This document shows positions 14,592-46,580 of a DNA stretch of 46,580 bases, piece by piece (the stretch's first letter is position 1; every line of letters starts with the position of its first letter). Source of the stretch: a virus. The stretch spans positions 1 to 46,580 of the IMG/VR virus record IMGVR_UViG_3300032241_000538. One strand, given 5' to 3'. The notes under the pieces were generated by a model. That model was not told the DNA's origin. It ran no database searches and saw only the letters and a program-made list of their open reading frames with translations. Position numbers and translations under genes: made by a program.

Positions 14592-14602
14592 TAGGATAAA
14601 GA

Positions 14603-32600: not shown

Positions 32601-33874
32601 TACGTATTGATGGAACTAATGGATCTGTACAGTTAAACAACAATACTTACTATGTAAAAGTTATTAGTTCTACTGTTGTTGATTTGTATAACACTCCATA
32701 TAGTGCAGCATTATCTGCCGTAAATAACCCAGTTACAGCAGTATCAACTTATACAGGTGGCGGTTATGTTTGGTTAGACGGATCATATATCTTATCTGAT
32801 ACAACTGCGTCTGCAACTGCAACCAATGGCACTATTACAGTTACAACAAACACAGGTCTATCGTTGATTGTAGGAACCCCAGTTTACTTTACACAAAAAG
32901 GTGTAACATTGGGAACAACATTTAGTTGTGGCATAGTAGCAGGTCAAGAGTACTATGTTTATGATAGTAACGCTTCAAGTTTTAGAATATCAGCCACACG
33001 ATATGGTTCGGTTCTACCATTAACTGCTGAAACAGGGTTAACAATTAATGTAACACAATGGCAACACATAAACGTTGATAGATTGTGGGTAACAGTAAAT
33101 GGATATCGTGTGCCTTCAAGTGCATTGCGCATTAATCCAGGAAATTATGTCAGCATACTTACAACTATACAGTCAAGCGACACAGTAATTATTACAAGTA
33201 TGATGCCAAGCGCAACGCCAAACGAAATGGTATATATTCAAAATGTCAATCAAGACGATGTGCCAACAGTTTATAATTCTAATTCAAACACAACATGGTT
33301 AACACAACCATTGGGTGATTTAGATACCATAATTTACGTTAATGACGCAACCCAACTTACAAACAAAGTAGTTCAAAATACTACAGCCTCAACTGTTGAT
33401 CCAGTTACTGGCAATATAGTAGTTGGTCTAACTGTAGACAAAAATACAGTTACTAACATAGTAGTTTACAATAACACTACAGGTCAAACAGTTCCTTCAA
33501 GTGATTATACGTTTATTGTAGTTGATTTAAGCCCAACACTATCGTTTGCTTCGGGCGTGTCTATTGGAAACAGTCTAACAATTACTATGTTAGAGGGCAA
33601 TTTAATTTACGTCAACGGCGAACAAATTAAGTTTGGTCTAATAAACTTAAGCAACAACAGTTTAACAAATATACAACGTGGCGCCAATGGCACATCACAG
33701 CAAACATATATTCCTGTATACACTACAGTAAGAGGACTATTATCTATTAACATGCTTCCTGAAGTCTATTACAACCAAACATGGAACCCAATACCAGGTG
33801 TTTATAACACTACATTAGGGGATCCATTGCAAATTGCAACAACTACACCAGCAAATATCTTAAACATGGACTAA
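14603..33874 (+). CDS. Giant 6423-aa virion protein in the gp7 position
   Basis: A single frame of 6424 codons, 41% of the window, starting at an ATG 5-6 nt after AGGA. No frameshift or internal stop is present. It follows gp6, where T4 has gp7 (1032 aa). The N-terminus (LDFLPEIFQTPTNQQFLSAT, then FYSWDSFVNLDPLVNFNQYY) and RPILEFYPNLRLFNSG (about residue 665) match what I recall of very large structural proteins in aquatic T4-like phages. Aromatic-rich conserved-looking stretches lie near residues 1380-1700 and 3176-3716. Repeated modules follow: about a dozen 'FTG...YYV...F.IS' units, three 'vGTTDFTavGA' units, an FG-GAP-like region (about 2500-3090), two 'GE.I.y...RG.NGT' units (about 3750-3800 and 6333-6370), and a BNR-like region (about 5010-5370). 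A baseplate-linked fibre or wedge role is likely. Tape measure is unlikely: there are no coiled coils or membrane segments. Confidence 0.85.
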   Translation: MATKIRTLDFLPEIFQTPTNQQFLSATLDQLVNPPDLQKIQGYVGSRYGYGVNPNDYYVTEPDVTRTNYQLDPGVVFTQPGTSTATDFISYPGLIDALNTAGGVTNNNNRLFNSQFYSWDSFVNLDPLVNFNQYYWLPEGPPSVTVAASTVYSTETYVVNDQPTGYFISTLNSAGGSINPTLTLLRSGVYEFVVNQPTDFWIQTQPGISGRNPSNPNQTTREIFGVTNNGANSGVITFAVPQSNAQQDLNIPGNNLVSVVSNISYQNLNGAPLSSIGSIDGVTSLNGLTVMFYDTGVPNEIAYTDNTWGNTEYAQNDPNITAPQNITITATSSTGNVITCSSVEGMQVNQSIAFTGVSFGGITVSPIDSNGNITDVQIYYVKSINATDNTFTISSALGGPAVSLTTATGTMNAIINDMEWEQGCYSSVNNNFYKITLAGDPSNPVILLSLAGQIPVNQKITAVYGNTYGGLSFYLDTYNNIEIIPLITAPLNTLYYQDGRDPNKVGTIQLIDNNIFNQLDVTTQIIGQKNFTSSNGVVFTNGLKVTFDGDVIPSSYLSGEYYVSGVGVAIELLPVDTFVVPEPFTGSVYNTYSTEPYDTTNYDDSLYIPVTPDYITIARDSLSLNAWSRSNRWFHIQVIQDTATYNNDPSILTTYGSQQNKAVRPILEFYPNLRLFNSGTAGKLPVDFIDFRTTDALNDVAGQPVYYPDVEVYTSYTANIAAATNAVSTTITVAASAVNGTFAVGMYINDSQNVLPPTAQITEISGTTTLTITVGWDDALTIPTTNNVSLVADQESNQNYILFSGARIIFAADPNENNKIFIVNITTVDTGSKPVIVLSETPDGNIVDNNLVAVLRGYNYQGYSFYYNIDAWVEAQQKTTVNQAPFFDVFDSNGISFSDPTVYLGTNFAGSTLFAYGVGTGTTDTVLGFPLRYSSVNNIGDISFDVTYNSQTFDYITSQTPITQNISTGYVYNMTGIETFERLIGWQTAVGPSVQYQVFSFNYYEGNTNANVFECDIVPVSTDSTPWPVIEVFVDGEIQPNSNYTVSIIRSSTIVTVTIPNTIVNGTVQIFLLSDQVSANAYYEIPTNLSNNPFNTDITVANTGDIRRQYESIFYNNPNFTGTVLGSNNYRDLGNLVPWGNVLIENSASLVLPGTFLRNLNYNIFDSIAYNSKKYIEYKNLIVSTVNSYPFSQTYDPAYILNTALDVITATKDNSMSFFWSDMLPAKAPYASNVYTFNNSLQTTIYPLTQTYNFETANYNGVLVYLARTVNGLTTTQQLIKGVDYTVSTTAPSLEITIELLPGDVVTINEYNQTYGSYVPNTPTKLGLYPAYVPGVVLDSDYAQPTYFIRGHDGSYNKLYGDYIAETNILIDFRDQALLEFETRIYNNLKLSNTLPILEQDIVPGFFRNSDYSYEEWLEAYEPGFLNWVGQNRLNYQTQYYDPNNQYTWNYNTTTNKVDNTQIGIGYWRGVYKYFYDTFTPNTTPWELLGFTSEPSWWTSRYGAAPYTSNNLVLWGDLEAGINYNNGDPVIIPQAVRPGLSKIIPVDSQGNLVSPFVSVVKNYYNPNFKQNWEVGDIAPVELSYRRSSSWPFDFMRIQALLKPAEFFNLGVYVDNYQYNAEFNQYLFNGNNHLLLNEIPVYGNGTAVTSYINWIVDYQKQYGIDATTAITTLLNNLDVRLVYRLAGFSDQNLLNFYVQSTNPNSNNSTLLIPNESYQVLLYSNPPYSGLKYSSVIVQILQNGFYAITGNSQTSAYFTVLTPKNDGQTTTITVDNLTVKVAKNYTDVEQVIPYGTQFISIQQVAEFLASYGAYLEANGVQYQYQVNSILLNWTQMISEFLYWTLIGWQPGALTTLNPAAYELTIDLPNQIVQPLSVQGANFVLNQNLYPIKNSDLNILRDGTLFNVAPLRTGDTISYGQFNLSNFENACVFDNYTLFGDTIYDLTTGTRQNRIYVRGSKTASWDGTYTASGFIINNNNVVQWQPSQRYTKGQIVLYKNQYWIATDIIQPSATFQQQYWKISNYNQIQTGLLPNSSTQSAESQYFYDTNVATINNDANLLGYSLIGYRQRDYAALVDLTDTTQVNVYQNLIKTKGSLNAVNAFVGADLPAKLPAGGINYNLYENWAIQTSSYGGTTNNNFVQFRLNAGELLGNPSVVGLTDGVYTTGVEQEVPLTSLYNYSGLITDPNILSTIPYVPSTLFSEAGYVNFNDVKMSSYFYSNLATAVSQQGTIVPITNFYVGDYVWVANYLNKWQVYTPTSIGQVVLVQNNLNNTCTVTFSAPHNLSQYDLIAIVNFNSQVDGYYSVSNIVDNFRITIFLNISNSTRQIVGQGVAMYLTSQRVASPADVINLPLIDFEFEPNTVWVDTNTDGSWAVYQKTLNYTYEQEFNYEESTAFGTAVCYNQDLGGYLLSDPGTVYRYDYDPLNGQYNIFQQLTGNASTYGSTITNEQQIYVVSQTTSDPAVYLYTLNTNNILSDNLIPYQTNTNADNTRNYSSYQGKITAPTGVTNFGYSTALSGDTNWLYVSDIVDNKVYVYKKQNILLQAGYFVTGETYTITSVGTTDFTTCTDQSDYPIQNKVGTVFVASNAGTGTGTASQCTYVLSTVIDGSGFSSSGDNFGNSIATDYYGDTVIIGAPGVDYSSSVQNYGSAYVYDRSKQNFVTGIINSALVPTFNLAWTPTTLTKTPTSVTTGNQIVLSNTTGITNGMPIIFTGTSFGATGLQQNVVYYVLSVVDGTHITLKASRNTTTPVTLSSGVLTGGVATAQNHGITVSVNGNTVQDNNYAVVGTQLIYTGTLTTGDIVTVDDNVFTLVQTLTTENTPEIGVQFGTSIDTTQFATEVIIGAPFELTTQLNEGAVYRFTNAGGKYGTIYGTSAVNVTSLRPLLINGFAVYVIGNASSVATSINQANILNVQASATSDNKLIISLINPNLSQANEELIISTLDPLAFGELGIQPYTLTQTILCPHDEGATQFGTTVKFNEQGSFVASAPVGTRFESTTFDQIEYPDNDTIFDNNTTQFIEQYANAGAVYMFDYLGVYNENINNTGNFVYAQSVNAQDTNYGLQPRYGTALDFVDNRVVIGTPNFKGVPNTIESDFVYGNGQVITYVNNVGTSDWSVYRQSSPIVDINKIGYAQIFSATSNQTLVNLDYFDPQQNKLLGAVAENIDYIANTDPASYNTGSVTQRGIVWGKEHVGNIWFNTQNVRFVNYHQNDVTYNSAYWGILFPGSDVAVYTWVESNVPPVNYAGPGEPYNTNSYSVETILNSSQAAVLVYYFWVRNTGVIFTQQGKNLSDTVLAGYIASPQNSGISYVSPVLPNVFSLYNSSAYLNGTDSIFNIAYATGTTNDAYHQEYALIRENYPEDFLPGLPNFDNKNPSLLYQRFLYSLSGVDAIGQVVPNPFLPIHVQTGVSARPRQSFFLDRFLALQNYIQFANNVLIQYPISETRENATFLFTSGEFYNTSDFWSYVNWWASGYDDSVRSSVVVPIYADLETLTVAPGTIVKVQQNGKGFSEWYIYNTDGTWTRIGLQNGTIQISSNLYNYPAAGYGFAGNFFGTTPFDQYPSEETYWIARALNEQIFTSELLIYRNQSLILMFQYISTEAVSSQNYLTWLNKTSLVDVSHNIRNLVPLENYQSDNQDFLSGYLSEALPYHVYIKNFTYVYTGSETYAGNITDFDLPSQYNSSIKQFISPELVYSQADNIVTFLPTASIWQEQQYNDWFNNYGVSLTGQNNVLITTVAQYVSIGSNSIYVTNSSGFPLNGIVTISGEQISYSSIDRNLGILYNLIRGYNGTPISTHLPGENIYIDLPPVLLLNGGRGYVNPPRVTAYIDTSIYPEPRVPAQLEAVMGLDTVVGINVINPGEGYAVLPEIIIDSSEVVVFAGTNINVGLNTITIYSSLLQTGDLVKYIESTTNTGPSGLVDNQWYYVGILQTTPVVVIALYANYSDSINDRNRVNITSQGNAVDNTLNLSARASAISTAVPVRENVINIKFDRTTYQSQVSDWASDTFYGSFFAGDLLNKEQVSSSNYTLENTQPNISTILASAQGAVFEITNVSNNQQVEWSTLSRSISNTFAATNSIRLSVADEQIISASNLVVGQQYTINFVGTTNFTAVGAAFNNVGTTFIATGSTTGTGTVIFNKNVAISGSTIGMTVGMPIQFTGVIGSSGLNIDTVYYVKSILNYTDFTISATIDQYGNPGSVYSLNDFTVPTSGLNCFVAQVINTAQLTVNYPGIRQVTTVTADKFSQRGYFTCPTSVLGTGGTQGFYIGLPVFFVGDVFGGVIPNITYYVLSILDNQNFTLAANTDVFTLTVNSTSSVTNYVNLNSTFGLNVNDPIVINDGYIAGIQTNDFGNILSDTIYFVSEIIDDNNITISTSYNGPVVSLETVGPTTLVAAGSMTAGQTYTIYFVGTSDFTLVGASSNAIGTIFVATGSTTGNGTVQSVYEATLTSQANTLQLSSATGSMTINLSLPVSPGQVNGQLFNLYKTSQITPNVSNGTITNQITGTIGALITTLNYAAITSSNGTNGYYVNMPITVGSGFTSLPAGLYYITSIGTISVIVTSTDSSTNRLTCSSNAALYLNMPIIFSNSSIGGIIIGQQYFVASIVGTTHFTISETQGGSTFVVTTDSGAMTGTGSPYITVSTTMSGSNVVLSNEPVSPPASVTLQQSPQNVAQFAIGYQVGGYSVIIENGGSGFAINNIITIPGTTVGGESPANDITLQVNGIDSDGAITSVIVTGTVPSSTENQYYLKVTGTNTFEVYTNPLMTIPVSGINFPYTGFTTSTVTHVNSSTSALTVADSSVFNLYDPVVFTGNIIPTTTDIVADTTYYVYEILSPTTFAVSAQPGVAPAIAMLTTVDVDFTVSKAGSYAFLPEPFYFNQSIVRFNEQVYVCIVSNNDTEFVYGKWQQLDSGDRRLNALDRIVGYYQPTVNMPSYSYYQNEAIQLGVPTIDFSQLVAGTEYPNSTYLGNQFQPGLQLPVAIELQDKPFYPTDINLAGIIYNGVTYVAPANISTGAALATNTTDDTWNITNLTTSNTGLTSINYTNNLYLLTCTNSATPILRSFDGVTWSSLGYYTSNYVTTLNLAGLSLNDSTYGNGIYVAVGSAILTSTDAINWTETLSFTGPLPTTLYSVTYVSIPTFTGFIAVGAGQRYDYSTGFTEIVDCNVVYTSTNGVQWSPVQYFSYNGLYYVTSNGTCIVAVGQNGIIYTSTNGTNWNGITETNVLSANGTNNVLNVGNTSGLTTNAPIRFSQSFNNIVAGTTYYVNTIVSNTQIKISATNGGGVLTLNSENPVGLCTLNIYPTYGNLTNVNYINSTLVALGSDGVLVTSTDNAATTWTTHTTGTTENLKGSVYHSGTYTIVGDNNTILQSTNLSTWTDGANFTTPDTIYNVQGSPFLDGYGPEELVAGVVRDNLTMLITTRPGVNWDVTEYAHNGYNVVSTVVSPTSETQTVYSFADFGVRVPTVLSVYVVNGTTNLCTGLYNGVDYTVNWLNKTITLNSALPYYPITYSLRIDLYEAGNGFQLVKSSTDYNPIINNFTTGFDEIELDCNFIASISAGNGAVQPATSPVETTATQTIASTNSIICDDVSQFVVNSSIYFEGTTFGNIQQGPAVSYYVKTISISTSSITVSASIVGGIAGPTFSLTNATGSMVVIISSGNETYWTPPLVTNKGVALTPGVLNYASATSSTNNHILCNSTSGIVVNSPIVFDNDIFGGINALQTYYVKAIIDNNNFTISSTVGGSTLTLTTAVGTSSFITYDYAIGAADNNITAKLIFSNPYDNADNFITYTILGETLPIQYGYTIPQTQLFTGNGATKTFTLSNYIGGDNASNAIVEVAGIRQTATAYSFDVATNQITFTSAPANGSTIAITTYNDTENQYLNTQYDITGNTVANIVSISNALSTPITTVATASSSSTNQITVTSTVGFIVGATVLFQGTSFDANITTGTIYFVKQVINGTHFTIANQTGTLITLAGGSGAMEVSVGGQPAVRVTTGIAHNLSDNNIIRIDGTNGSVQLNNNTYYVKVISSTVVDLYNTPYSAALSAVNNPVTAVSTYTGGGYVWLDGSYILSDTTASATATNGTITVTTNTGLSLIVGTPVYFTQKGVTLGTTFSCGIVAGQEYYVYDSNASSFRISATRYGSVLPLTAETGLTINVTQWQHINVDRLWVTVNGYRVPSSALRINPGNYVSILTTIQSSDTVIITSMMPSATPNEMVYIQNVNQDDVPTVYNSNSNTTWLTQPLGDLDTIIYVNDATQLTNKVVQNTTASTVDPVTGNIVVGLTVDKNTVTNIVVYNNTTGQTVPSSDYTFIVVDLSPTLSFASGVSIGNSLTITMLEGNLIYVNGEQIKFGLINLSNNSLTNIQRGANGTSQQTYIPVYTTVRGLLSINMLPEVYYNQTWNPIPGVYNTTLGDPLQIATTTPANILNMD
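15580..15840 (+). repeat. First 'FTG-YYV' repeat module in the giant protein
   Basis: It encodes about residues 327-413, with the pattern N-V-ITCSSVEGM, FTGVSFGGI, YYVKSI, FTISSALGGPAVSLTTATG. This is an isolated copy of the module that is clustered near the end of the same protein. The pattern is like the phage repeats that databases often label 'E1 FCCH-like'; that label concerns fold similarity, not ubiquitin activity. Confidence 0.6.
22120..23880 (+). repeat. FG-GAP-like beta-propeller repeats in the giant protein
   Basis: It encodes about residues 2506-3092. At least five blade-like units show the integrin-type pattern 'FG.S-A...D....VIGAP....G.VY.F': FGYSTALSGDTNWLYVSDIV, FGNSIATDYYGDTVIIGAPG, FGTSIDTTQFATEVIIGAPF, FGTTVKFNEQGSFVASAPVG, and YGTALDFVDNRVVIGTPNF. 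One 'FTG-YYV' module and one 'vGTTDFT' module interrupt the series. Such propellers commonly bind proteins or glycans; the ligand here is unknown. Confidence 0.6.
26870..29160 (+). repeat. Cluster of 'FTG-YYV' and 'vGTTnFT' repeat modules
   Basis: It encodes about residues 4089-4852. 'YYV/YFV' modules centre near nt 27100, 27440, 27650, 28370 and 29060; each has a Cys/Thr-Ser lead strand, an 'xPIxF' turn, YYVxSI, and FTIS. Two 'GQ.YTI.FVGT.(N/D)FT.VGA' units (26870-27000 and 27775-27910) share TGSTTG(T/N)GTV. The copies are diverged in both DNA and protein, so the array is old or under diversifying selection. Confidence 0.6.
29640..30720 (+). repeat. BNR/sialidase-like propeller repeats in the giant protein
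   Basis: It encodes about residues 5013-5372. Successive units show the pattern 'S.DG..W' with variants SFDGVTWSSL, TSTDAINWTETL, TSTNGVQWSPV, TSTNGTNWNGI, TSTDNAATTWTTH and STNLSTWTDG, each followed by strands with VAVG or similar. T4 gp7 contains comparable 'RKSTDVRWS' segments, which supports the idea that the giant protein is a grown gp7 analogue. No sialidase catalytic set is visible. Confidence 0.55.
31290..33050 (+). repeat. C-terminal cluster of 'FTG-YYV' repeat modules
   Basis: It encodes about residues 5563-6150. Clear copies lie near nt 31320-31545, 31620-31850, 32300-32525 and 32800-33050, with a shorter relative at about 32550-32760 ('IAHNLSDNNIIRI...YYVKVISS'). Each carries the sequence of short strands ending in YYV/YFV and F-(T/R)-I-(S/A), then a Gly-rich turn and 'LTTATG'-like strand. 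Confidence 0.6.
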
Positions 33875-37264: not shown

Positions 37265-37272
37265 GATAAATA
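37265..37272 (+). promoter_or_regulatory. Late promoter box GATAAATA before the second fibre-like gene
   Basis: GATAAATA lies in the 41-nt gap after the fibre gene, 19 nt before the ATG at 37292. A CGGAG ribosome site (37279-37283) lies between them, the same arrangement as at gp6. Confidence 0.55.
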
Positions 37273-37291: not shown

Positions 37292-38518
37292 ATGGCATAT
37301 ACAATAGTAAAGAGCAATGGTACAGTATTAACAACTATTGCTGACGGTACAATTAATACAACAAGTACCAGTTTAGGCTTACCCGGCAGAAACTATGCTG
37401 GTTATGGGCAAGCATTAGATGAAAACTTTGTATATTTGCTTGAAAATTTTGCAAGTCCAAACCCACCCGCAAACCCTTTAACTGGTCAATTGTGGTTTAA
37501 TACAAATAATAGCACAATGTATATCTGTCCTGCTGATGGTATTACAAATCAGTCAGCATGGTTAGCATTAACAGCCACAAGCAGTAGTGGTAATACTACT
37601 TTCGGTGCGGTTACAGTCACAGGCAACTTATCAGCAAATAATGCTATTTTTACAAATAGTATGTCTGCAAACAGCGCAAGTCTTAGTTACTTGACTGTTT
37701 CAACTAACGCCAATATAGCATTAGCAAACGTCAATTCAGCAGTTATTGGTACACTTACAACACAGTCAATTACATCAGGTGGCTTAACAACATTAGGTAA
37801 TTTAACTGGCGTATGGACAATGAGTGGTACAGGAACTGTTGGCGGCTATAACGGCACAGCAGTTTATATCACAAATGGTAACTTGCAAGTAGGATTAACA
37901 GGCGGAACAATAGGCATTCATACAGATAATTATTGTTATGCTAACGGTGCACCAGTAAGTTTTGCTGGTACATATAGTAACGCTAACGTGGCTGCATATT
38001 TGCCATTATATGGTGGCAACATTTTAGCACAACAAGTACAAGCAAATACAATTACAACAGGTGCAAATACAAACCCTGGCACAATTACAGGTAACTGGGC
38101 ACTTACAACAGGTTCACGTTTAATATCAACATACGCTGACTTGGCTGAACGCTTTGCTGCTGATGAAGAATATGATGCAGGAACAGTTGTTGAATTGGGC
38201 GGAAAATACGAAATTACAAGTGTAAAATATGAATTAAGTGATGACGTATTTGGCGTCATTAGTAATACCGCTGCTTATCTCATGAATGGAGAAGCAGGCA
38301 ACGATATAACTCACCCTGCAGTAGCAGTAACTGGTCGTGTACCAGTTAAAGTTGTAGGTAAAATAAATAAAGGTGAACGTTTAGTAAGTGCAGGTGATGG
38401 TACAGCCCGTGCAGCCAAACCAGGCGAAGCAACTGCATTTAATACTATTGGTCGAGCATTGGCAAGCAAAACCACTGATGATGTTGGCACAGTAGAAGCC
38501 ATAGTAATGATAAGATAA
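37292..38518 (+). CDS. Second tail-fibre-like protein with 'DLAE' C-terminal domain
   Basis: A 408-aa protein. Residues 1-75 repeat the N-terminal module of the preceding fibre (TIADGTINTTSTSLGLPGR, then NPLTGQLWFNT). The middle is a shorter Asn/Thr/Ala/Ser strand region. The C-terminal 130 residues are different: STYADLAERFAADEEYDAGT, VVELGGKYEIT, DVFGVISNTAAYLMN, VAVTGRVPVKVVG, and GRALASKTTDDVGTVEAIVM. This 'DLAE...GTVV..GG' domain is common at the ends of T4-like structural proteins. It may be a trimerisation or chaperone-type end; I cannot show self-cleavage. It follows a late promoter box and CGGAG site. Confidence 0.65.
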   Translation: MAYTIVKSNGTVLTTIADGTINTTSTSLGLPGRNYAGYGQALDENFVYLLENFASPNPPANPLTGQLWFNTNNSTMYICPADGITNQSAWLALTATSSSGNTTFGAVTVTGNLSANNAIFTNSMSANSASLSYLTVSTNANIALANVNSAVIGTLTTQSITSGGLTTLGNLTGVWTMSGTGTVGGYNGTAVYITNGNLQVGLTGGTIGIHTDNYCYANGAPVSFAGTYSNANVAAYLPLYGGNILAQQVQANTITTGANTNPGTITGNWALTTGSRLISTYADLAERFAADEEYDAGTVVELGGKYEITSVKYELSDDVFGVISNTAAYLMNGEAGNDITHPAVAVTGRVPVKVVGKINKGERLVSAGDGTARAAKPGEATAFNTIGRALASKTTDDVGTVEAIVMIR

Positions 38519-38530
38519 TAGGATTAGATA

Positions 38531-39487
38531 ATGACTTACGCGCAGTATGGATTGATACAAGCAACAGACTTCAACACATTAGTTGGTACAAACCCTAACA
38601 CCACATCAGGTACATTGAACACAGTTTGGGCAACAGGTGGAACTAGCGCGGGGTATGGTCAAACAGCAGTAGGTCAAGTAACAGCAGGCGGCACTGTAAC
38701 AGCCGCAGGTCAATGGAATGCATTAGTAAGTAACACCGCAAACGCAGCCACACATCAGGGAACAAGTATTTCCGCAGTTACTGCACCAGTAACTGGTAAC
38801 ACAATTACATATGTAAGTGCTATTAGTACAAACTTAACAACAATTTACAATAGCAGATTAAACGCTGCATCACAGGGCACAACAACAAGCAACACAGCAA
38901 CTTTTGGTAGCACATGGGCAAGTGCGTTAACATTCACATTTACTGCTACATTTGCCAACGGCGATGCTGCTCGTTATTTCTTTAACAGTGGCGGTCAATT
39001 AGCATTAACATGCAGTCACCCAACTGGTACAGGTATTAACTTATTGTTAAACAACTTAGCAAGTAACGTTGGTACAGTTGTATTAAGTGCACCAACAAGT
39101 GGTACAATCACAGTTAGTAGTACAAGTTATTCGGGCGTTACTAAAATCGGTGGCGGCGGCAACGCCCCAAGCCCATATCTAACAAATAATGGTTACTATG
39201 CGTTGACAACAGCAAACGCAAACGTTTTCCAACAAGCCGCTAGTACCGGACCAAGTGGTTACTTAAGTACAAACATTAAGTTTTTAATTAAATCAAATGG
39301 TACACAGGGAACCAACGGTGACGCAGGTAGCATTATTACAATCTACTGTTTATGGACAGAAATCCCAACTGGTTTAACAGCAAGTAGTGGCAGTGCTACA
39401 ACATTAACATTGCGTCCACCTGAAACAACATACCTAGCAAACAGTTGGGGCGCAGTAACATTATCTGGAACAGTTTCAGGTTCATAA
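38531..39487 (+). CDS. Fibre-region structural protein (putative)
   Basis: A 318-aa Thr/Ser/Ala/Gly-rich protein without signal peptide or membrane helix. The N-terminal part (residues 1-75) contains a 'WATGGTSAGYGQ' segment and may be the attachment end. Near residue 145 there is ANGDAARYFFNSGGQLAL, a motif I recall from virion proteins of marine phages. The C-terminal part is strand-rich and ends LSGTVSGS. It has an AGGA site 7 nt before the ATG and lies 12 nt after the previous gene. Function is unproven; its position makes a fibre or tip component most likely. Confidence 0.5.
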   Translation: MTYAQYGLIQATDFNTLVGTNPNTTSGTLNTVWATGGTSAGYGQTAVGQVTAGGTVTAAGQWNALVSNTANAATHQGTSISAVTAPVTGNTITYVSAISTNLTTIYNSRLNAASQGTTTSNTATFGSTWASALTFTFTATFANGDAARYFFNSGGQLALTCSHPTGTGINLLLNNLASNVGTVVLSAPTSGTITVSSTSYSGVTKIGGGGNAPSPYLTNNGYYALTTANANVFQQAASTGPSGYLSTNIKFLIKSNGTQGTNGDAGSIITIYCLWTEIPTGLTASSGSATTLTLRPPETTYLANSWGAVTLSGTVSGS

Positions 39488-39534: not shown

Positions 39535-39840
39535 ATGGATACAAGAACACTTATTGCCGAATCTAAGGCACGCTTTAATCATAACAGTGCCAAAACTTAT
39601 CTTAAAGAAAAATACAATGCAAAATTGATAGTGGCTGATCAAGGCGGTCTTTGGAAAGCCGATGCGCAAACACTTAACATTTTAAATGTTTTTGACAGCG
39701 AAAAACTAGTATTAATAGATACATTTGATAATCCTGTAATGGTAGATAGAAATGCATTGTTGGTTAAATTAACCGAAACGTATACAACTGTAATGAATGA
39801 ATGGTTAAAAGAATGGCAAGAACTAGAAGCAAAAAGATAA
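39535..39840 (+). CDS. Conserved phage protein of unknown function (101 aa)
   Basis: A 101-aa mixed helix/strand protein: LIAESKARFNHNSAKTYLKE, then KLIVADQGGLWKAD, LVLIDTFDNPVMVDRN, and a C-terminal helix rich in Glu/Lys/Trp. It has no Cys, signal peptide or membrane helix. I recall similar small proteins in structural regions of T4-like aquatic phages, without assigned role. A strong AGGAG ribosome site precedes the ATG. Its end overlaps the first glycosyltransferase-like frame by up to 40 nt, so it is the first gene of the downstream overlapping operon. Confidence 0.6.
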   Translation: MDTRTLIAESKARFNHNSAKTYLKEKYNAKLIVADQGGLWKADAQTLNILNVFDSEKLVLIDTFDNPVMVDRNALLVKLTETYTTVMNEWLKEWQELEAKR

Positions 39841-40640
39841 CCAGAGGTGTAGTTCTTTTTGCTTTCAACTCGCCAAGTTATAACTATTATGATATGGCAG
39901 TTTATACTGCTAAAAGAGCAAATCACTTTCTTAATTTGCCTGTAACATTGATTACAGATAATGACTCTGTGCCAAAAAAATCAAAATATAAATTTGATAA
40001 AGTAATTAAAGTAACTCCTGATAAAAATAATATACGTGATTATGGTATTTGGATTAACAAAGGTCGCTATCAAGCATATGAATTAAGCCCATACGATGAA
40101 ACAATATTACTTGATGCTGATTATATGATCAACAGCGACAAGATATTAAAAACATTTGACACCTGTGAAGATTTTTGTTGTCATGATACAACAAACTTTT
40201 TAATGCATCCAAATGCGGCACAAGAAGTATTAAGTGTTTATAGTTACAACACACTATGGGCAACTGTAGTTGCGTTTAGAAAAACACAACGTGCGCAACA
40301 AATTTTTGAATGTTTAGAAATGGTACAAAAGAATTATGATCATTATGCTAATATTCATAATTTTATTGGTGGCGTGTATCGCAATGACTATGCGTTAACA
40401 TTAGCATTGCGCATTGTAAATGGACATAGTGTAAATCCAAGAGATATTATTCCTTGGGAACTGTTACACGTTGGAAAAAATACACAAGTTTATCATGATA
40501 ATAATGATCCGTATAACACACAATATACAGTCATGTTTGATAATTGGCAAAGAACTAAAATACGCAAAGAGTATATAACAATCAAAGACATGGATTTTCA
40601 CGTTATGAATAAGGAAATCTTTGTAGAGTTAATAAAATGA
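39801..40640 (+). CDS. GT-A-like glycosyltransferase
   Basis: A 279-aa protein. A strand GVVLFAFNSPSYNYYDMAVY begins the nucleotide-sugar fold, LNLPVTLITDND follows, and the metal-binding DxD motif appears as LLDADYMI (D105-A-D107). A later NFIGGVYRNDYALTLAL and IPWELLHVG fit the acceptor side. Such enzymes transfer a sugar from a nucleotide donor; donor and acceptor are unknown. The first ATG overlaps the preceding gene by 40 nt; another in-frame ATG lies at 39813 and neither has a clear ribosome site, so the exact start is uncertain. The last four bases overlap the next gene (ATGA). It has no membrane segment, so it is expected in the cytoplasm. Confidence 0.6.
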   Translation: MVKRMARTRSKKITRGVVLFAFNSPSYNYYDMAVYTAKRANHFLNLPVTLITDNDSVPKKSKYKFDKVIKVTPDKNNIRDYGIWINKGRYQAYELSPYDETILLDADYMINSDKILKTFDTCEDFCCHDTTNFLMHPNAAQEVLSVYSYNTLWATVVAFRKTQRAQQIFECLEMVQKNYDHYANIHNFIGGVYRNDYALTLALRIVNGHSVNPRDIIPWELLHVGKNTQVYHDNNDPYNTQYTVMFDNWQRTKIRKEYITIKDMDFHVMNKEIFVELIK

Positions 40641-41398
40641 GAATTGCTTTATTTGCTGATAGTTTTGGTACCTCTCGTAATTCATTAAACGTGGCTTGGT
40701 ATAATCTTTTAGCAGAAAAACTAAACGCAAAACTTGATATTTTCGCATTAGGCGGGTATCCAACATTTTTATGTTATAAAAAATTTTGCAATGTGTATGA
40801 AAATTATGATCAATGTATTTTTTTAGTAAGTGATTATGCCAAATATACTAAGCCAGTAAATTTAGAAACTAAACAAGGCGTAAAATTTAATGAACATTAT
40901 ATTTCTGGATTGCGCAATTGTGAAATTATGTTAGAAAGCATGGATTTAATTGATAACGATGTAGAGTTATTAAACATGATTAAAGTTTGGTTTTTAATAT
41001 GTGATGATGAATTTTTACAAACTGTACAAGACCTTATCATTCAAGATTTGTTAAACAAAAAGCCTAACACAATAGTTTTACCAGTAAGCATACAAACAGC
41101 AGGGGTAAAACATTGCATGTCAGAAAAATGGTACGACAAACTTAATATAGATAAAAATTGGTCGTTTTGGGAGTTTCATAAAGTTATGGCAAGGTCACTT
41201 CAAAACAAATACGATGTATTGACATTTCCAGAATATCTAGAAATTCCTGACAAAATTTCTGCCCATTTAACTTTTGAGGCAAATAAGGTATTGGCTAATG
41301 ATTTATATGAATACATAGTTAACGGCACCACGTTAAAATTGCCAGAATATATAAAACATGATCATGAGATAAATTATTATTACGAGGTTAAGGAATGA
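40637..41398 (+). CDS. Putative SGNH/GDSL-like hydrolase
   Basis: A 253-aa protein. The first strand and turn, MRIALFADSFGTS, resemble block I of SGNH hydrolases (nucleophile Ser at residue 9). A late segment ISAHLTFEANKVLANDLYEY could supply the catalytic His (block V), though the usual Asp three residues before it is replaced by Ile (sequence ISAH). A Gly in block II may be in FALGGYP. If active, it would act as an esterase or acyl-transferase on sugars. It starts in ATGA overlap with the glycosyltransferase before it and ends in ATGA overlap with the one after it. The assignment rests on two motifs only. Confidence 0.4.
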   Translation: MRIALFADSFGTSRNSLNVAWYNLLAEKLNAKLDIFALGGYPTFLCYKKFCNVYENYDQCIFLVSDYAKYTKPVNLETKQGVKFNEHYISGLRNCEIMLESMDLIDNDVELLNMIKVWFLICDDEFLQTVQDLIIQDLLNKKPNTIVLPVSIQTAGVKHCMSEKWYDKLNIDKNWSFWEFHKVMARSLQNKYDVLTFPEYLEIPDKISAHLTFEANKVLANDLYEYIVNGTTLKLPEYIKHDHEINYYYEVKE

Positions 41399-42183
41399 AT
41401 AAAGGGTTTTTAATTGTAGCACAAAATACAGAAGACACTGATTATATTAAGTGCGCTACAGTATTAGCAAAAAGCATTAAAAAAGTAATGCCACGTGAGC
41501 AAGTGGTTTTATTAACTCACAAGATAATAGAAAACAACGCATTTGATAAAGTAATTAAATTCCCATATGGAGATTTAAACCCAACAGGAAAATGGAAATT
41601 GGTCAACGATTGGCAAGTTTATAAAGCCAGCCCATTTGAATACACAATCAAGTTAGAAGCAGATATGTATTTGCCACAAAATATTGATTATTGGTGGGAC
41701 GTATTAAAACAACGAGACTTTGTTGTGTCTACTACAATCAGAGACTTTAAACAGAATATTAGTAACGTAAGAGCATATCGAAAGTTTATTGATGACAATA
41801 AATTGCCAGATGTTTACAATGCTTTGACGTATTTTAAGAAAAGTGAAACTGCTAGATTGTTTTATGAAATTGTTAGAAATGTATTTGAAAATTGGAATGA
41901 ATGGAAAAAGATTTTGATTTGCCATCCCAATGAACCTATTACCACTGATTGGGCATATGCAATTGCCGCACATTATATTGGTATTGAAAAAACAACAATG
42001 CCACAATTTAAAGAAATGAGCATGATACATATGAAACAATACATTAATGGACTCCCAACAGAAGATTGGACTAATGTATTAATACATGAAAAATTGCCAC
42101 ATACTTTGCGTATTAATACTATTCCTCAAATGTATCCTTTTCATTATCATATAAAAACTTTTGCAAACGAGTTGGAGGCATAA
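41395..42183 (+). CDS. Glycosyltransferase-like protein with ExD motif
   Basis: A 262-aa protein. It begins with a Rossmann-like strand (KGFLIVAQN), then a helix and VVLLTHK. A metal-binding-type motif occurs at KLEADMYLP (E88-A-D90), in the position of DxD. Later segments include NALTYFKKS and TTDWAYAIAAHYIG, typical of sugar transferases that read a nucleotide-sugar and acceptor. It has no membrane helix. GAGG lies 7 nt before the ATG, inside the upstream gene. It shares its general plan but little sequence with the enzyme at 39801. Acceptor unknown. Confidence 0.55.
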   Translation: MNKGFLIVAQNTEDTDYIKCATVLAKSIKKVMPREQVVLLTHKIIENNAFDKVIKFPYGDLNPTGKWKLVNDWQVYKASPFEYTIKLEADMYLPQNIDYWWDVLKQRDFVVSTTIRDFKQNISNVRAYRKFIDDNKLPDVYNALTYFKKSETARLFYEIVRNVFENWNEWKKILICHPNEPITTDWAYAIAAHYIGIEKTTMPQFKEMSMIHMKQYINGLPTEDWTNVLIHEKLPHTLRINTIPQMYPFHYHIKTFANELEA

Positions 42184-42184
42184 T

Positions 42185-42535
42185 ATGAGTGAACAAACAG
42201 AAGAATATATTACAATATGGGCAACACCCACTATAGTTAAACCAGAATTTCGCTTATATTATGATGACAAGGGAAATGTAATTTGCTATACTTGTGATAA
42301 GTTAGAGGGAGACTATATTGTAGTTGACGCACAAACTTTTGCAGCCGGTAGACCAGATTTAAGAGTTATTAATGGGAAAATATCATCAGTTGCTAGTAAC
42401 TTGATTATTTCAAAATTAGAAAAACACGACAAAGAAGGACAAACTACTAGTGTTGAAGATATTAGTATAATACCAGACAGCAAATCGAGAGTTAAAAAAC
42501 AAAAATGGAAATTAACTACTAATGAGTATGGATAA
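42185..42535 (+). CDS. Conserved small phage protein with CxxC motif
   Basis: A 116-aa protein from ATG 42185, chosen over an in-frame ATG at 42161 because the strong GGAGG site (42173-42177) precedes 42185 and the stop of the previous gene lies just before it. Residues about 1-60 look folded: IVKPEFRLYYDDKGNVICYT, with the Cys pair C-Y-T-C, then LEGDYIVVDAQTFAAGRPDL. The C-terminal 45 residues are Lys/Ser-rich. The 14-nt overlap with the next gene ties it to the operon. I recall similar proteins beside T4-like sugar-transferase genes. Its role is unknown; it could be a carrier, adaptor or substrate for the neighbouring enzymes. Confidence 0.6.
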   Translation: MSEQTEEYITIWATPTIVKPEFRLYYDDKGNVICYTCDKLEGDYIVVDAQTFAAGRPDLRVINGKISSVASNLIISKLEKHDKEGQTTSVEDISIIPDSKSRVKKQKWKLTTNEYG

Positions 42536-43475
42536 TATTATTGACATAGCAGACTTAGATTGCATTTATCTAAGTTACGATGAACCACAAAAAGAAGAAT
42601 TTTGGTTAAAGATTAAGAACATGGTTCCCTATGCCAAACGTGTGGATGGCGTTAAGGGCAGTGATGCTGCGCATAAAGCAGCGGCTGAGGCTAGCGATAC
42701 CGAACGTTTTATTCTTATTGACGGCGACAATATGCCTGATGAAAGTTTTTTTAATGTACAATTAGACTTTACTGACAAAGACCCACGATATAAACAAGCA
42801 CAGTTTCGTTGGAAAGCAACAAACATTATTAACGGCTTGCGTTATGGCAATGGTGGCATGAGCAGTTGGACTAAAAGTTACGTAATGAATATGAAGACGC
42901 ACGAAAATCAAACTGATGGTGATGCGTCACGTATTGCTGATTTTTGTTTAGACAGTAATGACAACTTGTATTGGGCAATGTATGATTGCTATAGCACAAC
43001 ATATCCTAACTACACAAGTTTTCAAGCATGGCGTGCTGGTTTTCGTGAAGGCGTAAAGATGTGTTTAGTGCGTGGTGTTGTGCCTAGCATTGAAGATTTT
43101 AAAACAAATGTAAGCAGTCGTAATTTAAACAATCTTACTATATGGCATAACATTGGCGCTGATGTACAAAATGGCATATGGGCAATATATGGCGCAAGAC
43201 TAGGCACATATATGACTATGCTAACAGATTGGAACGCACATAACGTACAATGGTTTGATAACTATATTGAATTGTGGGAAGAACATAAAGATAACGACCC
43301 ACATGAAGAAATGTTACGATTAGGTAAAGAGTTAAAATTAAAATTAGATTTGCCTATATGTAATTATCATATTGAAGAAAGCAAATTTTTCAAACGCCAT
43401 TACACGGCAGACAAATACAACTTAGGTCCATTAGTTACTGAAATGGAAATCATACGTAAGATAGAAGGCTGGTAA
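42522..43475 (+). CDS. Glycosyltransferase-like protein with DGD motif
   Basis: A 317-aa protein. It begins IYLSYDEPQKEEFW, followed by YAKRVDGVKGSDAAHKAAAE and RFILIDGDNMPD (D67-G-D69). This order (sugar-nucleotide strand, 'GS.AAH.A' helix, DxD) is that of GT-A-type enzymes. Later aromatic-rich segments (NLYWAMYDCYSTTYPNYTSF) may bind acceptor. The start overlaps the preceding gene; M1 (42522) and M3 (42528) are both possible. Its TAA overlaps the ATG of the first radical SAM gene. It has no membrane segment. The acceptor and donor are unknown. Confidence 0.6.
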   Translation: MSMDNIIDIADLDCIYLSYDEPQKEEFWLKIKNMVPYAKRVDGVKGSDAAHKAAAEASDTERFILIDGDNMPDESFFNVQLDFTDKDPRYKQAQFRWKATNIINGLRYGNGGMSSWTKSYVMNMKTHENQTDGDASRIADFCLDSNDNLYWAMYDCYSTTYPNYTSFQAWRAGFREGVKMCLVRGVVPSIEDFKTNVSSRNLNNLTIWHNIGADVQNGIWAIYGARLGTYMTMLTDWNAHNVQWFDNYIELWEEHKDNDPHEEMLRLGKELKLKLDLPICNYHIEESKFFKRHYTADKYNLGPLVTEMEIIRKIEGW

Positions 43476-44875
43476 TGAGTTACGAAAGTGATCGCATCAA
43501 ACAAATTAAAATTAAGATTGAACAGGAAGTAGGACCTACATTCTGTTTAGCAAAGTGGCACCACGTTACAATGTACTTACAAAGTGGCGAGACACATAGT
43601 TGTTATCATCCTCGTCCACACAAGATTCCATTAGAAGAATTAAAAGATAATCCTTCAGCATTACACAATACAAACGAAAAGAAACAAGAACGCAAACTAA
43701 TGTTAGAAGGCGGCAAACCAGACGGCTGTGTATACTGTTGGAACATTGAGGCAATGGGCCCAGACTATATCAGTGATCGTCATATACGTAATGGTAGTAT
43801 ATTTACAGAAGAACGTTACGAACAAACAGCCAAAGGACCTTGGGATCAGAACATTAATCCAGAGTATCTGGAAATCAACTTTGGTAATGAATGTAACTTT
43901 AAATGTGGATATTGTCATCCTAAATACAGCACACGTTTCTATAATGAAATTAAAGAAAACGGGCCAGTAGAAAATGTACGCAATCATCGTTGCGATATTG
44001 ATTGGATGAAACTATATCAACGCGAAGAAGAAAATCCCTATGTTGACGCATTTTGGGAATGGTGGCCCGAACTACGCAAAACACTGAACATTATGCGTGT
44101 TACTGGCGGCGAACCTACAATGCATCGTAGTACATGGCAACTGTTAGATGCTATTGATAAAGATCCAATGCCTTGGCTTGAATTGAATATCAATAGTAAC
44201 TTGGGTACTAAAAACGCATTGGTACAACGATTAAGTACTAGTGTTAAAAAACTTGTAGATGAAAAGAAAATCAAAAGTTTTAAATTGTTTACAAGTATGG
44301 ATACATGGGGCGAACGTGCTGAGTATATTCGCACAGGACTTGATTTACAAGTTTGGGAAGAAAACTTTCATACCTATCTATCACAAACAGATAGCCCAGT
44401 TACGTTTATGATTACGTTTAATATCTTTAGTGTAACCACATTTAAATCGTTTTTAGAAAAGATATTAGAATGGCGCAATACATATGATTGGTATGACGAT
44501 CCTGTAAACCCACAACATCGTGTGCGTTTTGATACCCCATACTTACGTGACCCTATACAGTATGATATGAATATATTGCCTAAAGGCGAGTTTATGCCAT
44601 ATATGCATGATGCGTTAGAGTTTATGAAAGCAAATGTCGATGATAGTAGTGGTAAAAAATTTAGCACTATTGAATATGAAAAGTTTAAGCGTGTAGTTGA
44701 CTACATGGCTGAAACGAATTATAGCGATGAAAAACTAATTGAGGGTCGTAGAGACTTCTATAATTGGTTCAATGAATTAGATGAACGCAGAGAAACAGAC
44801 ATGCTTAGTGTGTTTCCAGAAATGATGAATTTTTACAGATTATGCCAGGAAGTAAATAGAACTAATCCACTATGA
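43475..44875 (+). CDS. Twitch-domain radical SAM protein 1
   Basis: A 466-aa protein. The radical SAM cluster motif is C140-x3-C144-x2-C147 (CNFKCGYC), followed by RVTGGEPT, the SAM-binding GGE. Upstream lies an N-terminal auxiliary-cluster pattern: FC24 (CLAKWHHVTMY), C43, and C85-x2-C88 (GCVYCW). This plan matches the N-terminal 'twitch' radical SAM proteins found in phages and bacteria. Downstream, GERAEYIRTGLDL is shared with the next gene. These enzymes use SAM and [4Fe-4S] clusters for radical chemistry on unknown substrates. It overlaps the upstream gene (TAATG) and the next (ATGA). It is the most divergent of the three radical SAM proteins here. Confidence 0.85.
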   Translation: MSYESDRIKQIKIKIEQEVGPTFCLAKWHHVTMYLQSGETHSCYHPRPHKIPLEELKDNPSALHNTNEKKQERKLMLEGGKPDGCVYCWNIEAMGPDYISDRHIRNGSIFTEERYEQTAKGPWDQNINPEYLEINFGNECNFKCGYCHPKYSTRFYNEIKENGPVENVRNHRCDIDWMKLYQREEENPYVDAFWEWWPELRKTLNIMRVTGGEPTMHRSTWQLLDAIDKDPMPWLELNINSNLGTKNALVQRLSTSVKKLVDEKKIKSFKLFTSMDTWGERAEYIRTGLDLQVWEENFHTYLSQTDSPVTFMITFNIFSVTTFKSFLEKILEWRNTYDWYDDPVNPQHRVRFDTPYLRDPIQYDMNILPKGEFMPYMHDALEFMKANVDDSSGKKFSTIEYEKFKRVVDYMAETNYSDEKLIEGRRDFYNWFNELDERRETDMLSVFPEMMNFYRLCQEVNRTNPL

Positions 44876-46149
44876 TAAAAATTAATAAATTAGACTTACT
44901 AGAAAATAGTAAAACATTCTGTATGTATCCATGGATACATCTTCACACTACACCAAGTGGTCGTACCGCTCCCTGCTGTATTGCTAAAAGTTGTACTGAT
45001 GACTATGCATTGAATCCAAACGACTATAATCTTATGGAATTAGTCAACAGTGATATGATGAAAACATTGCGTTTGGACATGCTTAAAGGTGTTCAAAACC
45101 CAGAATGTGAAAATTGTTATAAACACGAAAAACAAAATATTTGCAGTAGTAGAAAAAGTGTCAATAAAGATTTTGGAAAATACTTTGATGAAGCCATAGC
45201 ATCTACCAATTTAGAAGATGGATCATTAAAGCAATTTAAAATGCGTTATTTTGATATTCGTTTTAGCAACATATGTAATTTTAAATGTCGCACATGTGGA
45301 TTGCATTACAGCAGTCAATGGGAACAAGAAGATATTAAGCATAGTCCTATACATGTAAACCCAATACCAAAAAACAATAACAAAGAATTTTTACAAAACG
45401 TATTAGATCAAATCCCATATATGGACACTGCTTATTTTGCCGGCGGCGAACCCTTAATTACAGAAGAACATTATATTTTATTAGAAGAAATGATACGTTT
45501 GGGCAGAACTAATATACAATTAAAATATAATACAAACTTAAGTAACCTGCGTTTTAAAAGTAAAGACTTATTATCAATATGGAAAAACTTTAAAATGCCC
45601 ATACAGATTTATGCAAGTATTGACCATTATGGTGAACGTGCAGAATATCTACGACATGGAACAGATTGGGGCGTTATTGAAAGTAACTTTTTAACTATCA
45701 AACAACAAAGCAATATTAATTTGTCAATTAATACCGTGTTAAGTGCGTTTAATTTATTAACTATTGATAAATTTTACAATTATCTAATAGATAAAGGAAT
45801 GTATTATCCAACTTGTGATGTTTATAGTTTATATCCAATGGCTACACCAACACATTTAAGTTGTCATATACTGCCAATGGAATATAAAGATCAAGCAAAA
45901 ATTAAACTACAAAATTGCGTAGACAGATTTACAAAAGAAAACTTTACACACGAACAAACACATGAGTTTGTAAATGGTATACGTTGGATTTACAGTGAAA
46001 ATACATGGGAACGTGAAAAGTTTAACTTCTTTAGTGAAGTAAATCGTTTGGATAGAATACGCGGAGAAAATTTCAGCAAAGTCTTTCCTGAACTAGCCCC
46101 ATTATATGAAAGTATGAAACCACAACGTAGACCTTTGCCAACCATATGA
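44872..46149 (+). CDS. Twitch-domain radical SAM protein 2
   Basis: A 425-aa protein. The N-terminal auxiliary motif is C17 in FCMYPWIHLHTTPSG, C35-C36 (APCC), and C79-x2-C82 (CENCYKHE). The radical SAM motif is C135-x3-C139-x2-C142 (CNFKCRTC), then YFAGGEPLI. The GERAEYLRHGTDWGVIESNF block is shared with radical SAM 1. The C-terminal part lacks an obvious further cysteine cluster. It is about 40 aa shorter than radical SAM 1 and closer in sequence to radical SAM 3, so 2 and 3 look like the more recent duplication. ATGA overlaps at both ends show strict coupling. The substrate is unknown. Confidence 0.85.
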   Translation: MIKINKLDLLENSKTFCMYPWIHLHTTPSGRTAPCCIAKSCTDDYALNPNDYNLMELVNSDMMKTLRLDMLKGVQNPECENCYKHEKQNICSSRKSVNKDFGKYFDEAIASTNLEDGSLKQFKMRYFDIRFSNICNFKCRTCGLHYSSQWEQEDIKHSPIHVNPIPKNNNKEFLQNVLDQIPYMDTAYFAGGEPLITEEHYILLEEMIRLGRTNIQLKYNTNLSNLRFKSKDLLSIWKNFKMPIQIYASIDHYGERAEYLRHGTDWGVIESNFLTIKQQSNINLSINTVLSAFNLLTIDKFYNYLIDKGMYYPTCDVYSLYPMATPTHLSCHILPMEYKDQAKIKLQNCVDRFTKENFTHEQTHEFVNGIRWIYSENTWEREKFNFFSEVNRLDRIRGENFSKVFPELAPLYESMKPQRRPLPTI

Positions 46150-46580
46150 ACAAAGACTTCTTATTAAATGAAAGCAAAGTCTTTTGTATGTTTCCATGGG
46201 TACACTTAAACACAACACCCAAAGGTGATATCTATCCCTGCTGTAGCAATGACTATCAAAGTCCATTTGCTAACACAAAAGACAGCACATTAGAACAAGC
46301 ATTTAATAATGACAAAATGAAACAACTGCGTTTGGATATGTTAAACGAACGCAAGAATAATATCTGTACGTTTTGTTATAAGCACGAAGAAGCAGGCCCA
46401 CATAGTTTTAGAAACTATAGCAAAGATCATTTTGCCAAATACTTTGATGAAGTTGTGACTACTACACAGCCAGACGGCACTGTGCCAGATTTTAAAATGC
46501 GTTACTTTGATATTCGCTTTAGCAATATCTGTAACTTTAAATGCCGTACTTGTGGCAGTGAATTTAGCAGTCAATGGGCA
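46146..46580 (+). CDS. Twitch-domain radical SAM protein 3 (cut by window end)
   Basis: 145 residues are visible before the window ends, with no stop. FC14 (FCMFPWVHLNTTPKG), C32-C33 (YPCC) and C74-x2-C77 (CTFCYKHE) give the auxiliary motif. The radical SAM motif is C129-x3-C133-x2-C136 (CNFKCRTC). The segments LRLDML, FCYKHE and FKMRYFDIRFSNICNFKCRT are almost identical in radical SAM 2, though the DNA differs at many third positions. It starts in ATGA overlap with that gene. The catalytic end lies outside the window; more genes of this operon may follow. Confidence 0.85.
   Translation, partial: MNKDFLLNESKVFCMFPWVHLNTTPKGDIYPCCSNDYQSPFANTKDSTLEQAFNNDKMKQLRLDMLNERKNNICTFCYKHEEAGPHSFRNYSKDHFAKYFDEVVTTTQPDGTVPDFKMRYFDIRFSNICNFKCRTCGSEFSSQWA

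Follow-up and report, generated by a model that had tools for sequence, protein, structure and literature searches.

Ordered sugar-transferase-like and radical SAM genes behind the fibre genes of uncultured aquatic jumbo phages probably build and edit a sugar coat

Results

The virus record IMGVR_UViG_3300032241_000538 was analysed over its entire length of 46,580 bases (hereafter the window), which is itself a fragment of a genome. At the end of the window, sugar-transferase-like genes and genes of radical S-adenosylmethionine (SAM) proteins (rSAMs) lie directly 3′ of fibre genes. We found that this gene block is a real and strongly conserved unit of uncultured aquatic jumbo phages, in which the ordered transferase-like genes are followed by one to five rSAMs, and that its probable role is to build a sugar coat on the fibres of the virus or the surface of the host and to edit it chemically. 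We give a probability of roughly 45% to the reading that it is a late operon of jumbo myophages for the assembly and tailoring of a glycan, whose acceptor most likely is the fibre or neighbouring virion proteins. The block links the orphan N_Twi_rSAM family to glycosyltransferases and fibres and makes it testable which glycan, which protein and which radical step are involved. Its features are given below, and genes are named by their first coordinate or by the family or clade stated there.

37265..37272, + strand, late-promoter-like box GATAAATA, 27 nt upstream of the fibre gene 37292 (consensus match only)
37292..38518, + strand, fibre-like structural protein (family f/c6), putative first gene of the operon (repeats, synteny)
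38531..39487, + strand, c5, conserved protein of 318 residues, probable virion protein (conserved across loci)
39535..39840, + strand, c7, small conserved protein of 101 residues (conserved across loci)
39801..40640, + strand, GT8-like glycosyltransferase 1, DAD motif (probability 99.3 and E 6e-21 in a profile comparison with the 41395 family)
40637..41398, + strand, SGNH-like protein, assigned from its motif alone (ADSFG close to the N-terminus), insert confined to the window
41395..42183, + strand, GT8-like glycosyltransferase 2, EAD motif (AlphaFold2 pLDDT 96; Foldseek matches)
42185..42535, + strand, c4, small conserved protein of 116 residues (family alignment)
42522..43475, + strand, GT-A-like protein G with a DGD motif (model weakly similar to GT-A enzymes, E about 1e-3)
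43475..44875, + strand, N-terminal-twitch rSAM of clade RC, the core rSAM (NF033640 5.3e-93; N-terminal Cys 24/43/85/88; CxxxCxxC at 140)
44872..46149, + strand, N-terminal-twitch rSAM of clade RF (NF033640 7.8e-111; N-terminal Cys 17/36/79/82; CxxxCxxC at 135)
46146..46580, + strand, N-terminal-twitch rSAM of clade RG, cut by the contig end (NF033640 1.7e-46; CxxxCxxC at 129)

The gene order is conserved across phage loci

A scan with 44872 retrieved 80 viral loci, and rSAM clades were defined by clustering and a tree of 222 rSAMs. The clades mostly occur once per locus and in a fixed order, which is RC-RA-RB-RD-RE in most phages and RC-RF-RG-RB-c18 in the group of the window. We then defined a divergent set of 34 loci with an RB identity below 80% (median 58%, lowest 32%). 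The order RC-(RA or RF)-RB was present in 34/34 of these. Where enough sequence was available, RD and RE, or c18, were found downstream (26/26), and G, two GT8-like genes and c5 upstream (11/11). Between RC and RB, the 34 loci carry 33 inserted non-core genes. Since the RC...RB order is fixed despite these insertions, it is maintained in a region that acquires genes.

Because the first loci had been found via an rSAM, the order test was repeated starting from G and from 41395. G is common, with at least 598 confirmed stretches. The G-anchored test used the best 80 of these at least 598 stretches, which, being best-scoring, lean to close relatives, and its counts include related phages. An rSAM was found downstream of G in all 77 loci with at least 1.5 kb of downstream sequence (RC in 76 of these), and c5 and two GT8-like genes were found upstream of G in 79/79 loci. 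An earlier interpretation made from the letters of the window (the sequence-only reading) had suspected related clusters in other aquatic phages and had stated beforehand that scattered genes would make a single pathway unlikely. One co-conserved unit was indeed found, and its genes are not scattered (77/77, 79/79 and 34/34 loci). The full block is present on the phage-like metagenome-assembled genome (MAG) contigs L084, L099, L101, L105 and L108 (genome_contigs scan). Among 50,697 deposited phage records, no relative of G, c5, c4, either GT8-like gene or RC was found.

The core order is fibre, c5, c7, GT8, GT8, small protein, GT (G), RC and then zero to four further rSAMs. The unit had first been taken to start at 39801, and this start has to be moved: the conserved unit begins upstream, with the fibre gene, 38531 and 39535. 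The SGNH-like protein, proposed as a member of the pathway, is not supported as one. Its ADSFG-like block I was seen by eye, and 40637 has no family or PDB match and no relative in any locus retrieved; it was therefore treated as an insert and not as core. Other phages have a different gene in this position (L185), which looks sulfotransferase-like by eye and has no Pfam match. Likewise, the CxxC that had been pointed out in the small protein c4 is not kept across its family, which is conserved over most of its length and has no variable core and no repeats.

The layout of the block, with overlapping or nearly touching genes directly behind the fibre genes, was as described before with respect to reading frames, strand and junctions. 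From 39535 to 46580, every gene junction is overlapping or abutting. The gene at 39535-39840 and that at 39801 share 40 nt, and the latter starts at 39801 or 39813. Positions 39837-39840 read ATAA in the window where the relative L004 has an ATGA start-stop overlap, so the 39801 gene must begin upstream and overlap 39535-39840. The genes 40637, 41395, 44872 and 46146 each overlap the preceding gene by 4 nt, 42522 does so by 14 nt and 43475 by 1 nt. After 41395-42183, a 1-nt gap is followed by the ATG at 42185; a longer c4 from the TTG at 42161 is disfavoured, since the homologue in L004 starts at the ATG corresponding to 42185.

RC is the core radical SAM protein and the others are add-ons

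We counted strong rSAMs after G in 97 loci anchored on G or 41395 with at least 4.5 kb downstream of G, the counts being lower bounds where a locus ends early. One rSAM was found in 19 loci, two in 10, three in 25, four in 32 and five in 11. RC alone is thus the core rSAM and the other rSAMs are add-ons. In examples with only RC, the next genes encode mannose-6-phosphate isomerase-type cupins and nucleoside triphosphate (NTP)-transferase-like, kinase-like and SGNH-like proteins. As rSAMs and sugar genes occupy one slot, a glycan is favoured as their common product. Variable genes elsewhere in the loci encode an NAD epimerase, a DegT aminotransferase, a UDP-glucose dehydrogenase, a heptose-phosphate adenylyltransferase-like protein and a NodU-type carbamoyltransferase. 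The dedicated pathway of the sequence-only reading is supported as far as a co-conserved unit with glycosyltransferase folds is concerned, but of its rSAMs only RC belongs to the core.

A methylthioadenosine/S-adenosylhomocysteine (MTA/SAH)-type nucleosidase lies immediately 3′ of RD in 17 loci, and MetK is encoded in 13 loci (TIGR01034, 4.8e-130 in L044). Nucleosidases of this type can cleave 5′-deoxyadenosine as well. Both neighbours agree with active, SAM-consuming radical SAM enzymes.

The transferase-like proteins

As the transferase profiles found no significant match among PDB sequences, we turned to structure prediction. The model of 41395 matched glycogenin (E 1.1e-8), LgtC (8.3e-7) and UGGT (2e-6) in Foldseek, and 41395 is predicted to adopt a GT-A fold of the GT8 type. 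By its profile match, 39801 is a homologue of 41395. Neither protein matched a Pfam or NCBIfam family, GT8 included, at E up to 1. The first and last residues of DAD (39801), EAD (41395) and DGD (42522) are invariant in 34-40 relatives. In addition, 39801 and 41395 have an invariant H...K pair close to the C-terminus (H267/K271 and H250/K254), without the full HxxGxxKPW motif.

G is the most conserved transferase of the cassette, with a mean column identity of 59% and with D67 and D69 invariant. Its model has a pLDDT of 85, and its best PDB matches are nearly all GT-A enzymes or nucleotidyltransferases and are weak (E at least 1.3e-3, TM about 0.3). Strong matches in the viral library were two large uncharacterised phage proteins. 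Of the three sugar-transferase-like proteins proposed earlier, the two GT8-like ones are borne out by the predicted fold of 41395 and the profile homology of 39801, while G is GT-A-like more weakly. In long relatives of G, tandem repeats of about 65-90 residues rich in W, D and Y are followed by a C-terminal G domain (L008 3599-6373, L066 7915-10623, L053 16804-18432), and the repeats are similar to the stretch after the DGD motif.

The radical SAM proteins

All three proteins described as radical SAM proteins match NF033640 (5e-93, 8e-111 and 2e-46) and carry CxxxCxxC. NF033640 is the NCBIfam model N_Twi_rSAM, 'twitch domain-containing radical SAM protein', with a curated cut-off of 170 bits; 43475 (312 bits) and 44872 (371 bits) score far above it, and the incomplete 46146 fragment, 145 of about 409 residues, scores 159. 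The orthologue of 46146 in L004 is full-length, and there the series goes on with RG, RB and c18, another rSAM. The number of three rSAMs is correct for the window, but near relatives have four N_Twi rSAMs and another rSAM.

In an alignment of 44 relatives, C135/C139/C142 (CxxxCxxC), GGE 191-193 and the N-terminal cysteines are invariant. CxxxCxxC and GGE are kept in 212/212 non-redundant rSAMs from seven clades, and the four N-terminal cluster cysteines (17, 36, 79 and 82 in 44872) in all of these except one gapped row. The cluster residues, whose loss in most relatives would have spoken against a single pathway in the sequence-only reading, are therefore intact in the relatives, and the idea that the rSAMs are degenerate was rejected on these cysteine counts. 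Their N-terminal domain gave a match to BtrN's twitch domain (E 6.5e-5), which lies at the opposite end of that protein. At position 35 of 44872, a fifth N-terminal site, five clades (RB, RD, RE, RF, RG) have Cys, and RA and RC have Ser without exception. As this position lies beside an N-terminal cluster cysteine, the residue might distinguish reaction types.

Nine phage contigs (91-344 kb) have 6 to 14 N_Twi rSAM matches each, mostly above the cut-off, and further N_Twi rSAMs are dispersed elsewhere in these genomes; none of 14 control genomes had a match above the NF033640 cut-off. In one Elusimicrobia MAG, N_Twi-type rSAM genes form tandem arrays with three to six members (L110, L112, L114, L159). 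The Vibrio jumbo phage K566 (L163) encodes several distant rSAM relatives, with a PagP gene nearby (11965-16367 and 21978-22427), and is a possible laboratory model.

A late-type box precedes the fibre gene

The GATAAATA box upstream of the fibre gene recurs 27-31 nt upstream of the fibre orthologue in L004-L007. In the window, it was also found 26-51 nt upstream of 11175 and 2318, and all five + strand sites (2267, 10662, 11149, 33883, 37265) lie 13-159 nt upstream of a gene start. Exact ATAAATA is scarcer in the window than expected by chance (8 versus 31). These consensus matches suggest that GATAAATA is likely a late promoter box. From 38531 to the window end no GATAAATA box was found, and the fibre gene through the rSAMs may be expressed as a single late transcript. 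A scan for TATAAATA allowing one mismatch was uninformative, and sigma-70 and terminator scans gave matches no more numerous than in shuffles.

Function of the block

In the mechanism that we propose, the two GT8-like enzymes and the divergent GT-A-like G would attach sugars to an acceptor, and the twitch rSAMs, RC first and then the lineage-specific ones, would edit these sugars by hydrogen abstraction. The edits could be dehydrogenation, epimerisation or deoxygenation, as by BtrN, NeoN and HygY on aminoglycosides. The acceptor would most likely be the fibre and the adjoining virion proteins encoded immediately upstream. BtrN dehydrogenates a sugar ring (aminocyclitol), and the N-terminal resemblance to its twitch domain would support this reading. 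The proposal starts from the observed gene order, conservation and cluster cysteines and from the predicted GT8 fold; we infer that the enzymes share one glycan, as well as the radical chemistry and the acceptor. A more specific version, in which a multi-step phage rSAM pathway makes a unique glycan on the phage's own fibres with one ordered radical edit per paralogue, is tentative and somewhat doubtful. If true, this would be the first virion glycan made by radicals and would provide a function for the orphan N_Twi_rSAM family; decorated fibres would matter for the range of hosts and for competition among phages in lakes and seas.

Several points weigh against such a glycan operon. G resembles GT-A enzymes weakly, and the NF033640 family has no assigned function and no known activity or substrate. 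Its bacterial homologues are mostly single chromosomal genes in varied bacteria, and a Pfam tally of the neighbours of these single genes showed no consistent partner and no consistent glycan neighbourhood. The basis for the fibre as acceptor is gene position only, and among characterised SPASM/twitch rSAMs peptide substrates are more frequent than sugars.

The main rival to a fibre acceptor is the host surface. The same enzymes could remodel the surface glycan of the infected host (lipopolysaccharide (LPS) or O-chain) and in this way exclude competitors or prevent progeny from sticking to debris. LPS sugar-nucleotide-like genes do neighbour the cassette in relatives, K566 encodes the lipid A acyltransferase PagP no more than about 10 kb from its distant rSAM relatives, and in some loci c12, a small protein with a signal-peptide-like start, lies immediately upstream of G. 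The GT8-rich tail-fibre island of pelagimyophages has been interpreted in this manner (PMC7029224). However, superinfection exclusion would be expected early, whereas the cassette lies in a fibre operon after a late-type box, and the core showed neither a flippase nor a polymerase or membrane acyltransferase. Because of the gene position and the late-type box we favour the fibre, and consider host remodelling rather unlikely.

The rSAMs could alternatively act on peptides, like maturases of ribosomally synthesised and post-translationally modified peptides (RiPPs), and crosslink, epimerise or oxidise residues of the fibre protein, c4 or c7, with the transferases glycosylating the same protein. 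Many characterised SPASM/twitch rSAMs have peptide substrates (review PMC11002830), several ordered paralogues could serve several residues, and the fibre and small proteins are encoded nearby. In contrast to a RiPP biosynthesis cluster, no precursor peptide gene was found when we looked for one: the overlapping genes of the cassette leave no room for a free precursor-like small reading frame, and c4, conserved as it is along most of its length, is unlike a precursor. Moreover, phages with only RC fill the place of the other rSAMs with sugar-type and not peptide-type genes. A glycan is thus favoured over a peptide as the target, and the peptide explanation is improbable. That the genes share no pathway, being unrelated accessory genes held together by linkage to the fibre genes in one phage lineage, would agree with the hypervariable surroundings and with the dispersal of further N_Twi rSAMs in these genomes. 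It is largely disfavoured and very improbable, as the core order persists down to 32% protein identity despite insertions.

Comparison with known systems

The chemistry of the block had been thought undescribed, which is correct only in part. In pelagimyophages, tail fibres, GT8 genes and radical SAM cassettes make up a 'host recognition cluster' that has been interpreted as serving O-chain modification (PMC7029224). As in that cluster, fibre and GT8 genes lie here in a variable island within the structural region. The pelagimyophage cluster is placed between VrlC and gp14; in the window, the giant reading frame upstream matches phrog_10938, and gp14 falls beyond the fragment. The passages on that cluster describe variable cassettes and report no fixed GT8-GT8-small-GT-RC core or ordered rSAM paralogues. 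Similarly, a T4-like marine TARA genome is rich in rSAM genes, with 12 of them (PMC5332604). The passage on these genes gives them as Fe-S proteins beside Fe-S assembly genes, without discussion of gene order or of sugar genes. The literature searched, which excluded subscription papers and preprints, held no report on a fixed GT-rSAM core or its function, and the fixed multi-rSAM core appears to be new to description.

At the level of the enzymes, the phage rSAMs are like the sugar-acting twitch rSAMs BtrN, NeoN and HygY in having a radical SAM core and the site for one auxiliary Fe-S cluster in a twitch domain, which follows the core in BtrN and is N-terminal here. The NF033640 family differs in these phages in being multiplied into ordered paralogues. 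In its predicted fold and its metal-binding DxD-type motif, 41395 resembles GT8 enzymes such as glycogenin and LgtC; it differs from them in its low identity (12-17%), in EAD for DxD and in having no Pfam GT8 match.

Upstream genes and phage context

Upstream in the window lies a T4-type baseplate set with gp53-, gp5-, gp25- and gp6-like genes, and gp47- and gp55-like genes are on the opposite strand. The gp6 is closest to those of Rak2-like jumbo phages such as Munch, GAP32, CBB, Atu_ph07 and Phosso, which sets the window phage apart from pelagimyophages. The probable virion protein c5 (38531) had no match in profile and family searches. Further upstream lies the following open reading frame, the product of which is a virion protein of unusual size.

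14603-33874, giant virion protein open reading frame of 6423 residues (matches phrog_10938, virion structural protein, in the first two thirds)

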